Of a stretch of DNA of 64,000 nt, positions 1,286-14,100 are shown piece by piece. The DNA comes from Saprospiraceae bacterium (GTDB lineage Bacteria; Bacteroidota; Bacteroidia; Chitinophagales; Saprospiraceae). Position 1 is the first letter of the stretch, and every line of letters starts with the position of its first letter. The position numbers and the translations under genes were made by a program. Where the stretch lies: NCBI GenBank assembly GCA_027488855.1, contig JAIYAV010000095.1:1-64000 (forward strand), in the 5' to 3' direction. The notes beneath the pieces were generated by a model that was not told where the DNA came from, ran no database searches, and saw nothing but the letters and a program-made list of their open reading frames with translations.

Positions 1286-2635
1286 ATGCAAGCACTTACC
1301 CTATTTTGGTTTCGACGCGACTTGCGGCTGCAAGACAATGCGGGATTGTACCATGCCTTAAAAAGTAAATTTCCGGTCCTCCCCCTGTTCATTTTTGATG
1401 CCGATATTCTGGATAAACTAGATGATCCACAGGATGCCCGGGTGAGCTTTTTGCATCAAAGTATTCAGCACTTGCACGAAGAACTCCAAGCGCTCGGCAG
1501 CAGCATCCTGGTGCGTTATGGCAAACCCAGCGAGGTTTGGGCACAAGTCCTGGAGGAATTTGCCATCGCCGAGGTGTACACCAATCACGATTATGAGCCC
1601 ACGGCTATCCAACGTGACGAACAAGTCAAGGCCATGCTCGCGGAGCGTTACATTCCCTTTCATGGGTTTAAGGATCAGGTGATTTTTGAAAAACTGGAGG
1701 TAACCAAGGCCGATGGCAAGCCTTATACGGTATTCACACCTTATAGTCGGATGTGGAAAAACAAGTTGAACTCCCGGATGGAAATGCCCGATGGGGCAGG
1801 GGAGGAGGAGGCTGTTTCGTTTTACCTCAAGCCTTATCCTTGCGAAAAACATTACGCCAATTTTCATCAAATAGAACCCCTGCCTGTCCCTGCGCTCAGT
1901 GCCATGGGATTTCATGCATCTACGGTTGAAATCCCTTCCAGCAACGTCAGTCGTGGCTTGATCAAAACATACGATAAAACCAGAGATTTCCCTTACCTCC
2001 TCGGCACCTCCCGCCTGGGGATTCATTTTCGTTTTGGTACCATCAGCATCCGGGAAAAGGCCCGCCGGGCACAGGAACTGAACGAAACCTTTCTCAATGA
2101 GTTGATCTGGCGTGATTTTTACGCCCAAATCCTCACCAATTTCCCCCATGTGGCCAAGGGCTCCTTCCGCCCCGAATACGACCGCATCGAGTGGCGCAAC
2201 GATGAGAAGGAATTTGAAAAATGGTGTACCGGTAAAACGGGCTACCCCATTGTCGACGCTGCTATGCGCGAACTGAACAGCACAGGCTTCATGCACAACC
2301 GGGTGCGGATGATCACTGCGAGTTTTTTGACCAAACATTTGTTGATTGACTGGCGTTGGGGTGAGGCTTATTTTGCTAAAAAACTCCTCGATTTTGATCT
2401 GGCGAGCAACAATGGGGGCTGGCAATGGGCTGCCGGCTGCGGTACGGATGCGGCGCCGTATTTTCGGGTGTTTAGCCCGGCAGCGCAGCAGGAGAAATTT
2501 GATCCTGAGTACAAGTATGTGCGGAAGTGGGTGCCGGAGTATGGGACGGCAGCTTATCCTAAGCCGATGGTCGACCATAAATTTGCACGGGAGCGCTGTT
2601 TGGAGGTGTACAAAATTGCGCTCAAAGGGGTGTGA
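1286..2635 (+). CDS. phr: Deoxyribodipyrimidine photo-lyase / cryptochrome family
   Basis: MQALTLFWFRRDLRLQDNAGL…; FAD-domain motifs ELIWRDFYAQIL, GYPIVDAAMREL, RVRMITASFLTKHLLIDWRWGE. Confidence 0.95.
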   Translation: MQALTLFWFRRDLRLQDNAGLYHALKSKFPVLPLFIFDADILDKLDDPQDARVSFLHQSIQHLHEELQALGSSILVRYGKPSEVWAQVLEEFAIAEVYTNHDYEPTAIQRDEQVKAMLAERYIPFHGFKDQVIFEKLEVTKADGKPYTVFTPYSRMWKNKLNSRMEMPDGAGEEEAVSFYLKPYPCEKHYANFHQIEPLPVPALSAMGFHASTVEIPSSNVSRGLIKTYDKTRDFPYLLGTSRLGIHFRFGTISIREKARRAQELNETFLNELIWRDFYAQILTNFPHVAKGSFRPEYDRIEWRNDEKEFEKWCTGKTGYPIVDAAMRELNSTGFMHNRVRMITASFLTKHLLIDWRWGEAYFAKKLLDFDLASNNGGWQWAAGCGTDAAPYFRVFSPAAQQEKFDPEYKYVRKWVPEYGTAAYPKPMVDHKFARERCLEVYKIALKGV

Positions 2636-2650
2636 AACTCGAAGTTTTTT

Positions 2651-2786
2651 GATTTGGCTCCGCCAAATTATTTTTCTTCACCACGACGACACGACGGACA
2701 CGACGTTTTTAGCGCTTCGCGCTTAAGACACGACGCGCAGCGTCGTGTTAGCTGAGCTTAACGTCGTGTCCGTCGTGTCGTCGTGG
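2651..2786. repeat. CACGACG-family palindrome, copy A: 27-bp perfect outer stem (2681-2707 / 2760-2786) enclosing hairpins
   Basis: ccacgacgacacgacggacacgacgtt … aacgtcgtgtccgtcgtgtcgtcgtgg; inner hairpins agcgc-ttc-gcgct and acacgacgc-gca-gcgtcgtgt; flanking hairpin atttggc-tcc-gccaaat. Confidence 0.9.
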
Positions 2787-2825
2787 GGAATAAAAAATAA
2801 TCGTTGTGGTGAATAATATCAACTT

Positions 2826-3203
2826 TCAAAGTACCAGTCGAGTAATGCCATCTTTGACAAGTGGGACATTGAAATTAACCAACATACCTAAACTACAATT
2901 GGCCAATTTCATGTATGTCATTAATTGAGCTTGATAGATAGGATTCATAACCTCTACTGCTTTTAGTTCGAGAATAACTTTTTCCTCTACTAAAAGATCA
3001 ATTCTATATCCTGAATCAAGTAAAACTCCCTTGTAGACAATGGGAAGTAATTTCTGCTGTTCAACGATTAAGCCAGCATCCTCTAACTCTTTTTTAAGGC
3101 AAATTTCATAAGTTGATTCTAATAAACCCGGACCGAGTGTTCGGTGAACTTCAAAAATACAATCGAATATTTTATTCGATAAATCCTTATACAAGTATCC
3201 CAT
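2826..3203 (-). CDS. GxxExxY protein (PD-(D/E)XK nuclease-like)
   Basis: MGYLYKDLSNKIFDCIFEVHRTLGPGLLESTYEICL contains GPGLLESTY; downstream YRIDLLVEEKVILELKAVE resembles a D…ExK core; start trimmed from 3299 to the MGYLYKDL methionine. Confidence 0.85.
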   Translation of the reverse strand: MGYLYKDLSNKIFDCIFEVHRTLGPGLLESTYEICLKKELEDAGLIVEQQKLLPIVYKGVLLDSGYRIDLLVEEKVILELKAVEVMNPIYQAQLMTYMKLANCSLGMLVNFNVPLVKDGITRLVL

Positions 3204-3231
3204 TGTTGCGTTCTTTTGTTCAAACCATAAT

Positions 3232-3302
3232 AAGCGCGAAGCGCAAAAACGTCGTGCCCGTCGTGTCGTCGTGGTGAATATACAATTTGGCGCAGCCAAA
3301 TC
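3232..3302. repeat. CACGACG-family repeat, copy B (half-element, inverted relative to the left half of copy A)
   Basis: gcgcgaagcgc aaaaacgtcgtgcccgtcgtgtcgtcgtggtga atatac aatttggcgcagccaaatc. Confidence 0.85.
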
Positions 3303-3321
3303 AAAAAAACACCGTCGTATT

Positions 3322-3410: not shown

Positions 3411-5150
3411 TTAGTAGCCTGGGTTCTGCTTCAGGATATCAGCACCGATGATGTCGATCTGATCTTGTGGGATTGGCAGCAATTCATGCTTTCCAGCAGT
3501 GAATTTAGACCCGCCCAGTGTACCTGCCAAAAACTTGGACTCGTAGGTCAGGTATGCATTGATAGCAGCATCCGCGATACCCCAGCGTACGAGGTCATAG
3601 AAGCGGTGACCTTCACCAGACAATTCAATCTTGCGCTCAAAACGTACTGCATTGCGCGCAACGTTTTTGTCGGTCCAAGCAGTGTTGTACAAGCCGATTA
3701 CGTAGTTGGCAGCGTTAGAGCCGTTAGCACGTTTTACAAAGCCAGCAGGGTTCGCTGCACGAGCACGGATCAGGTTGACATATTCCCGAGCTTTTTCCAG
3801 GCTACCGATTTCAACTTCGCACTCAGCAGCCATCAGCAGTACATCTGCAAAACGGATGATGGTGAAGTTTTGAGCAGTATAACCAGGAGTCCAGGAAGTG
3901 TTGTCTTGCAATGAACCAACATCAGACTTGTAGTAAGTATACTTCTTGGGAGAGTAAGGACCACCGTTGGGCTGGTTGCGAATCCAAGCCACACCGGGGT
4001 GATCTTGCCAATCCAGGAATGGAATACCGCGACGGCCAACTGACCAGTCGAGACGTGGATCCAAAGTGCCTGCATCTGGCGTAAAGGCATCGCCTGAACC
4101 AACACCCATGTCCGTTTTTACCTGGTTTGCACCAGTGTTGTAGCTACCATCCAACAGTGGAAGACCATTGGCGTCTACGCGGAAAGAGTTCACCAATTCG
4201 AAGCTAGGCTGGAAGAATCCACAGCAGTTACCAGGACCGTTAGGACCAGTGTTGTATGGATAGTTCAAGTCAAATTCAGCGTTGGCGTTGTTTACGCTAC
4301 CCGTGTTGGCAGCTGCCTGCCAAGCCCATACGGATTCAGCATTGTTGTCGTTAGAACCTTTGTACAGGTCGCCATACCTGGCTTCCAGTGCATACTTTCT
4401 ATTGTTGCTGGTTTTGCCATTGGCGATACAAGCGTCGAATTGAGCTTTGGCTTCAGCATACTTCTTCTGATACAGGTAAGTTTTGCCGAGGTAAGCAGCA
4501 GCAGCCCACTTGTTTACGCGACCTACCTGACCCTGAGTTTCAGGCAGGTTGTCCAGTGCAAATTTGAAGTCTGCTTCAATCTTAGGCCACAGATCTTGGT
4601 TGTTTGGCACTTTTTCGATGCCACTACCATAATCTACACTTTCGTCAACATAAGGTGTGTTGTTGAAGTTGCGCTTCAATTGGAAGTAGAAGTGTGCGCG
4701 CAAGAAACGGACCTGTGCCGAAACACTGGTCTTGGTTGCTGCAGTCACATCTGGCTGAGCATCAGCGATGAGGCGCAACACGAGGTTGGCGCGAGCGATG
4801 CCTTCATACAAACCGACAAAGTTATCGCGGATAACCCCTTGCGTTGATTGGTACTCAAAACGCTGGATTGGGTTGATGTCAGAAAAGTCACCGGGGTCGG
4901 TACCTTTGTTGGCATCACCACCACGAACACTACCCCAAACCCAGTTGATGGGGTGAACCATCCGGCGGCCACGGCCACTGACTTGGGAATACACAGAAAT
5001 CAGGGCAGCTTCGATGCCCTTAGAAGTGGTCAATTGGGCATTGGCCAACTGACCGGTTGGAGCAACCTCCAAAAAGCTATCCTTACAGGCAAAGCCAATC
5101 AGAGCCAACAAGGCCAGGGCAAAACCAGTAATGAGCAATCTATTTTTCAT
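3411..5150 (-). CDS. RagB/SusD family nutrient-uptake outer-membrane lipoprotein
   Basis: Signal and lipobox MKNRLLITGFALALLALIGFACKDSFLEVAPTG; SusD-type C-terminus ERKIELSGEGHRFYDLVRWG. Confidence 0.92.
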   Translation of the reverse strand: MKNRLLITGFALALLALIGFACKDSFLEVAPTGQLANAQLTTSKGIEAALISVYSQVSGRGRRMVHPINWVWGSVRGGDANKGTDPGDFSDINPIQRFEYQSTQGVIRDNFVGLYEGIARANLVLRLIADAQPDVTAATKTSVSAQVRFLRAHFYFQLKRNFNNTPYVDESVDYGSGIEKVPNNQDLWPKIEADFKFALDNLPETQGQVGRVNKWAAAAYLGKTYLYQKKYAEAKAQFDACIANGKTSNNRKYALEARYGDLYKGSNDNNAESVWAWQAAANTGSVNNANAEFDLNYPYNTGPNGPGNCCGFFQPSFELVNSFRVDANGLPLLDGSYNTGANQVKTDMGVGSGDAFTPDAGTLDPRLDWSVGRRGIPFLDWQDHPGVAWIRNQPNGGPYSPKKYTYYKSDVGSLQDNTSWTPGYTAQNFTIIRFADVLLMAAECEVEIGSLEKAREYVNLIRARAANPAGFVKRANGSNAANYVIGLYNTAWTDKNVARNAVRFERKIELSGEGHRFYDLVRWGIADAAINAYLTYESKFLAGTLGGSKFTAGKHELLPIPQDQIDIIGADILKQNPGY

Positions 5151-13950: not shown

Positions 13951-14100
13951 GAGCAGCTTCGCTGCCTATTGTTCACCACGACGACACGACGAACACGACG
14001 ATTTACGCACTTCGTGCGTTCTGAGCACGACGCTTGCGTCGTGAAGTGCGGAGCGAATCGTCGTGTCGTCGTGGTGAAAAAAACAAACAGCGGAGCTGTT
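13951..14100. repeat. CACGACG-family palindrome, copy C (no cargo): 21-bp perfect outer stem with internal and flanking hairpins
   Basis: ttcaccacgacgacacgacga (13972-13992) / tcgtcgtgtcgtcgtggtgaa (14058-14078); hairpins gcagc-ttc-gctgc, acgcac-ttc-gtgcgt, cacgacgc-tt-gcgtcgtg, aacagc-gga-gctgtt. Confidence 0.9.

Follow-up and report, generated by a model that had tools for sequence, protein, structure and literature searches.

The GxxExxY gene near the beginning of the window, by which we mean the whole stretch of 64,000 nucleotides that was analysed, is enclosed by inverted arrays of a seven-base motif, and the same arrays occur in many gene-less copies elsewhere in the genome. We consider it probable that the locus belongs to a selfish palindrome family as the copy which carries the gene, a minimal unit that resembles the REP/RAYT systems but in which an unrelated nuclease would act on its own arrays. 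The inverted heptamer arrays and the enclosed gene would constitute one co-inherited unit of about 0.45-0.7 kb. The argument for a selfish unit is built on the locus-specific enclosure of the gene, the matching of array type and protein type, compensatory changes in the palindromes, presence and absence in related genomes, replacement in orthologous slots, the catalytic residues, and purifying selection on the gene. We infer, with good support, that it is a minimal mobile element, as the sequence-only reading had suggested; the nuclease may move or copy the palindromes. The family of very small selfish DNA units to which it would belong is apparently undescribed; no paper linking GxxExxY or PF13366 proteins to palindromes was found in the open-licence literature, to which the search was confined, and the novelty is provisional.

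The window is part of a genome (G000) that is Haliscomenobacter-like and comprises 8.37 Mb in 422 contigs. The gene (2826-3203, minus strand, ATG start, 125 amino acids) lies between two convergent genes which we take, from their translations read by eye, to be phr (1286-2635, plus strand) and a susD-like gene (3411-5150, minus strand). It had been called the only plausible gene between the ends, and the scores of its product bear this out; the protein is a clear member of TIGR04256 (147.1 bits, cut-off 35) and of PF13366, PDDEXK_3 (141.5 bits, cut-off 22). The ends themselves were correctly described as nearly identical inverted repeats: positions 2645-2725 match the reverse complement of 3231-3308 with 90% identity over about 80 bp (blastn, 104 bits, E 8e-23), the arms were also recovered as the inverted pairs I2, I3 and I4 in a repeat search, and the inverted-repeat score of the flanks is 116 against a threshold of 30.

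Each end consists of an ATTTGGC hairpin, a CACGACG-n-CACGACG-nn-CACGACG array and a GCGC mini-hairpin, the core of the arm being the three CACGACG heptamers with their spacers of 1 and 2 nt. The ATTTGGC-NNN-GCCAAAT hairpin that was said to start both ends is indeed found at both, with the loop TCC on the left (2652-2668), where it also scores as a terminator-like stem followed by a T tail, and with the loop GCA on the right (3285-3301). The left hairpin is followed by the first array (2682-2705, plus strand, an exact match to CACGACG-A-CACGACG-GA-CACGACG), by the mini-hairpin AGCGC-TTC-GCGCT (2711-2723), which is paired and shows compensatory changes among copies, and by an inner hairpin ACACGACGC-GCA-GCGTCGTGT (2728-2748), in which pair 102-112 has changed from A-U to C-G in four of 14 aligned copies. 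This inner hairpin is the loop of a full palindrome (arms 2671-2707 and 2760-2796, 95% complementary) that is closed by a second, inverted array (2762-2785, minus strand, exact pattern match), and beyond it lies a fragment TCGTTGTGGTGAATA (2801-2815), a copy of the arm end which belongs to the direct repeat family D2. The right outer arm (3231-3308) is only half a palindrome and holds the GCGC mini-hairpin, the third array (3250-3273, inverted, an exact match to CACGACG-A-CACGACG-GG-CACGACG on the minus strand) and the terminal hairpin. The view that ends of about 70 bp enclose the gene is thus right as to the enclosure, but the left side is more complex, being a full palindrome plus a fragment. 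No Rfam family matched above its gathering score between 2000 and 4000.

The expectation that GxxExxY genes are flanked by these ends beyond chance turned out to hold in a modified form: most loci have arms, but arms of their own and not this 70-bp sequence. Enclosure was scored by aligning the 350 bp on either side of the gene, the downstream stretch as its reverse complement, with 30 as threshold, at 69 loci outside the window (25 from named records, 27 from the phylum and 17 from the genus). The threshold was reached at 40 of the 69 loci as against one of 325 control windows taken at these loci (Fisher p 9e-35), and swapping left and right arms between loci abolished the match. HigB-type genes (PF05973) gave 0/26 and size-matched ORFs from the genus 7/1385, and the Y1_Tnp (RAYT) genes used as a positive control gave four out of eight. 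About 40% of the GxxExxY loci fell below the threshold, some of them with visible but weak arms. Chance or common AT-rich flanks as the cause of the enclosure were ruled out by three controls. The possible objection that other GxxExxY genes lack such ends is literally correct for the 70-bp sequence, yet most carry their own version, and the linkage of repeat and gene recurs in many phyla with an arm sequence specific to the locus.

The arms have a common syntax, in which C[A/G]CNNA[G/T] is repeated three to four times with the copies 1-4 nt apart. This syntax was seen in no fewer than eight phyla (Bacteroidota, Planctomycetota, Verrucomicrobiota, Thermodesulfobacteriota, Chloroflexota, Pseudomonadota, Gemmatimonadota and SAR324). 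Complete-sequence plasmid records from Bacteroides finegoldii, Sphingomonas parapaucimobilis, Gemmatirosa and Bernardetia are among those with such arms. The possibility that the units are phage or plasmid cargo was rejected, as a search of 50,697 phage records gave no match and one of 72,556 plasmid records gave seven.

Heptamer type follows protein type. When 67 proteins on an ML tree were labelled with the last letter of their heptamer, by a simple fixed count rule which leaves some labels doubtful (L101, L138), the label changed six times against a mean of 15.7 for shuffled labels, and none of 200 shuffles gave a number as low. GPGLLE proteins mostly occur with ...AG heptamers, G(Y/F)GFLEKVYQ proteins with ...AT heptamers; this split is seen in Chloroflexota, Fidelibacterota and Bacteroidota, and a single Haliscomenobacter genome shows both types next to each other. 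Among the genus genes that were compared, the one whose product is nearest to the window protein (L159, in the genome G002; 69% identity) lies at another locus and has CACGACG/CGCGACG arms. In G000 and G004 the L159 locus is occupied by a different GxxExxY gene together with CACCTTAG-type palindromes; the product of this gene shares 44-46% identity with L159. Physical linkage suffices for co-inheritance, and co-inheritance alone could yield the matching of heptamer and protein; the matching of types therefore shows a unit, and that the protein recognizes its arrays directly is a further step which we infer.

The 70-bp ends are not private to this gene, as had been assumed, but belong to a multi-copy repeat of which nearly all copies are gene-less. 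The left end gave 84 blastn matches in G000. The CACGACG array, with up to two mismatches, was found 57 times in G000, 14 times in G002 (chromosome of 8,371,686 bp), twice in G004 and not in G001 or G003, with no match to the reversed control pattern; G000 and G002 are the only members of the genus found with a CACGACG-type gene. The contigs C98, C99, C262, C301, C321 and C386 of G000 begin at most about 30 bases from a CACGACG palindrome, so the repeats probably break the assembly and the copy numbers are lower bounds. One gene-less satellite lies in the window itself (13969-14073, a 79% blastn match, with an exact array at 13977-14000), and the plasmid record of H. hydrossis DSM 1100 contains the same repeat. 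Most copies are gene-less and palindromic, about 130 bp long, with GCAGC and TTTGGC hairpins at their termini. When 14 of the copies were aligned, 15 of 52 predicted pairs were seen to hold their pairing through changes on both sides; covariation of the spacer dinucleotides between the arms was weak (8 of 14 match, 4.1 expected). There is nesting among the copies, e.g. a CGGAT palindrome within a CACGACG palindrome.

The association of gene-less palindromes with the gene was analysed in 148 genomes of the phylum. The pattern CCACRRAG..CRCRRAG..CTYYGYG occurred at least twice in 16 of 73 genomes with GxxExxY and in none of 75 without (p 5e-6), where some matches adjoin a GxxExxY gene and relatedness is only roughly controlled; the p value was 5e-4 for genomes of at least 3 Mb, 2e-4 for genomes with TIGR02436 and 0.017 for both restrictions together. 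Possession of the gene is insufficient for spread, since G003 has at least four GxxExxY genes, yet no heptameric gene-less palindromes and almost no palindromes at all were found in a 400-kb sample. The genome G001, which is 86% complete, carries a CGCGACG palindrome and no known gene of that type. Long palindromes were found at about 115 per Mb in a sample of G002 (L210-L229), mostly of many different heptamer-like types, and at about 8 per Mb in G003 of the same genus. A RAYT as the mover of the CACGACG palindromes was considered and rejected; the 13 Y1_Tnp genes of G000 lie elsewhere and are flanked by differing repeats of their own, with a few stray CACGACG heptamers at most.

Comparison of orthologous loci, which had been proposed as a test, gave presence and absence for gene-less copies, with clean empty sites in sister species at four slots (L006, L008, L010 and L014), but not for the window locus, where G002 shows only a remnant and G004 has a CACCTAAG palindrome. 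No clear target duplication was seen at the window locus or at these four slots. At two orthologous slots the flanks are about 90-93% identical and the dS of the GxxExxY genes is 1.4-2.8, which is far above what the flanks allow, so the gene copies have probably been replaced. In S. parapaucimobilis, an array-gene-array structure with CGCGAAG arrays lies within the fabD-fabG junction (L352:1437-1900, NZ_CP155749.1); the junction is plain in S. paeninsulae. Neither a target duplication at this insertion nor the array in viral contigs was found.

At several intergenic slots (L007, L017, L005, L002; L170-L187) the palindrome differs from one Haliscomenobacter species to the next, and CACGACG, GTTCCAA and GTTCGGG types were all seen at L017. 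An apparent recent transposition of a GxxExxY unit in G003 (L162:1310-2120 and L166, identical over about 800 bp) was discarded as such; the identity extends into paralogous flanking genes, which makes duplication or gene conversion more likely.

The main rival to our reading places the mobility elsewhere, and we regard it as rather unlikely. It says that palindromes and GxxExxY genes are cargo of MITEs moved in trans by DDE transposases, and that the nuclease has another job. The CACGACG family resembles MITEs in being short, non-coding, inverted and multi-copy and in having empty sites, and one nested copy of another type, CACAAAG, does look like a MITE: a 122-bp insert (L330:303-424, empty in L338) contains the CACAAAG palindrome, has CAYACYACTGGACATTTTT as its inverted ends and is accompanied by a 9-bp target duplication, GGCTTCGCC. 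Ordinary transposases therefore probably move at least some copies. This insert places its palindrome in the loop of another palindrome. Some Haliscomenobacter palindromes sit inside outer inverted ends, either AAAGCGACA, which is common to several palindromes and GxxExxY genes, or CAYACYACTGGACA with a 9-bp target duplication. Many palindromes of differing heptamer type (L155, L151, L152, L165, L340, L341, L202) have a common outer AAAGCGACA or close variants of it, and these are possibly transposon ends. What such a model leaves unexplained is that the heptamer type tracks the protein tree and that palindromes in at least two copies occur only with the gene; moreover, outside the terminal hairpins no inverted end is common to the CACGACG copies, and in other phyla the arms lie directly against the gene and no additional inverted ends can be seen.

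The placement of GxxExxY proteins in the PD-(D/E)XK superfamily agrees with the motif residues of the window protein, E29, D69, E79-x-K81 and Q93-xxx-Y97, since E29, D69, E79, K81, Q93 and Y97 are retained in 68-70 of 70 GxxExxY proteins. An acidic helix residue followed by D, E-x-K and Q-xxx-Y makes up a RecB/Cas4-type active site. The AlphaFold2 model of the window protein (pLDDT 93.9) has lambda exonuclease, Cas4 (SSO0001) and LHK-Exo as the nearest PDB folds, all of them weak matches (E 1e-3 to 1e-2, TM 0.45-0.50), and a PDB sequence search with the protein gave no match. Residues and model together predict a RecB/Cas4/lambda-exonuclease-like nuclease with conserved catalytic residues. The genes are under strong purifying selection, with dN/dS of 0.02-0.11 in the seven measurable gene pairs. 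A role as a defence system was rejected; a weak match to a Cas4 profile was obtained, and none to other defence models.

A nuclease of this fold, under strong purifying selection and found in genomes where palindromes are commoner, could also be a housekeeping enzyme which processes palindromes, in an SbcCD-like role or as a trimmer of cruciforms, so that the cell tolerates long ones, and which is housed in a palindrome for regulation or keeping. We think this improbable, since several differing copies per genome, a patchy occurrence (TIGR04256 is above its cut-off in 73 of 148 sampled genomes of the phylum) and slot replacement are typical of selfish genes, and since G003 has the gene and lacks such palindromes. 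Very doubtful is finally a model in which a normal small gene is flanked by arms that serve as bidirectional terminators or as hairpins stabilising the mRNA, and in which the likeness of the arms is due to convergence on strong hairpins: it is in line with the position of the window element between convergent genes, the T tail of the terminal hairpin, the base pairs kept through compensatory changes and the unrelated hairpins in the same slots of sister species, but it predicts neither a heptamer syntax common to several phyla nor the match with protein clades, it would not surround GxxExxY genes while sparing HigB-type genes and other ORFs, and the Sphingomonas arms lie within a co-directional fab operon.

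For the selfish unit that we prefer, the following mechanism can be formulated. The gene-less copies of the array would fold into hairpins and spread as non-autonomous satellites. The nuclease may bind the heptamer arrays both in its own ends and in the satellites and may cut or trim the hairpin or cruciform which the arrays form; this cutting would start the copying or insertion of the palindrome. A more general hypothesis, which we put forward tentatively and do not yet favour, is that throughout the bacteria selfish elements some 0.45 kb long have GxxExxY proteins as their dedicated movers, that the ends of these elements are degenerate heptamer arrays read by the nuclease, and that their satellites account for a large share of the palindromes found between genes in Bacteroidota and other phyla.

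The comparison with REP/RAYT made by the sequence-only reading is apt, as the gene is flanked by palindromes that also occur without it. Like the 'REPtrons' (PMC3116915, PMC8266576, PMC2817692), the unit has one small nuclease gene between inverted palindromes, there are many gene-less intergenic copies of the palindrome, and protein type is paired with palindrome type. It differs in that GxxExxY is a PD-(D/E)XK nuclease and not a HuH tyrosine transposase (Y1_Tnp), and in that the arms are degenerate heptamer arrays, whereas the RAYT palindromes are GTAG-tagged hairpins of 20-40 bp. The CGTC-tagged REPs are palindromes without a RAYT for which no dedicated transposase is reported; they are hairpins of 20-40 bp with an unpaired CGTC tag at one end (PMC3733652). 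CGTC is also present in the window arms, but here it is paired within the heptamer array, and most related arrays lack it. The intervening sequences of 23S rRNA with their S23 four-helix proteins are likewise tiny selfish units of a stem and a small gene (PMC4990558). The GxxExxY units differ from these by lying outside rRNA and by encoding an unrelated protein fold. To our knowledge no heptamer arrays have been found in such intervening sequences.

If the nuclease moves or copies the palindromes, the REP/RAYT way of life would have been arrived at a second time, by unrelated means. The units would be among the smallest self-encoded mobile units, and they would explain many unannotated intergenic palindromes. 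They would then form a class of mobile elements in which a RecB/Cas4-like nuclease replaces the transposase, with an S23-like four-helix class in parallel. We know of no role assigned to TIGR04256 or PF13366, although TIGR04256 is found in half of the sampled genomes of the phylum, often in several copies per genome. The arrays offer a concrete predicted DNA target for these proteins; as the heptamer pairing predicts this target from sequence, the function of GxxExxY is directly testable, and the family may supply small nucleases whose target arrays can be read.

The TIGR02436 loci (L047-L053, L270-L299) show a parallel arrangement, a second system in which the protein is unrelated. Genes for S23-like four-helix bundles lie here inside locus-specific inverted arrays, in 22 of 37 cases as against none of 74 control windows, and the arrays consist of 7-bp units without spacers, such as AGTGAAA, TGAAAAA, GTACGAA and AGCTATC.
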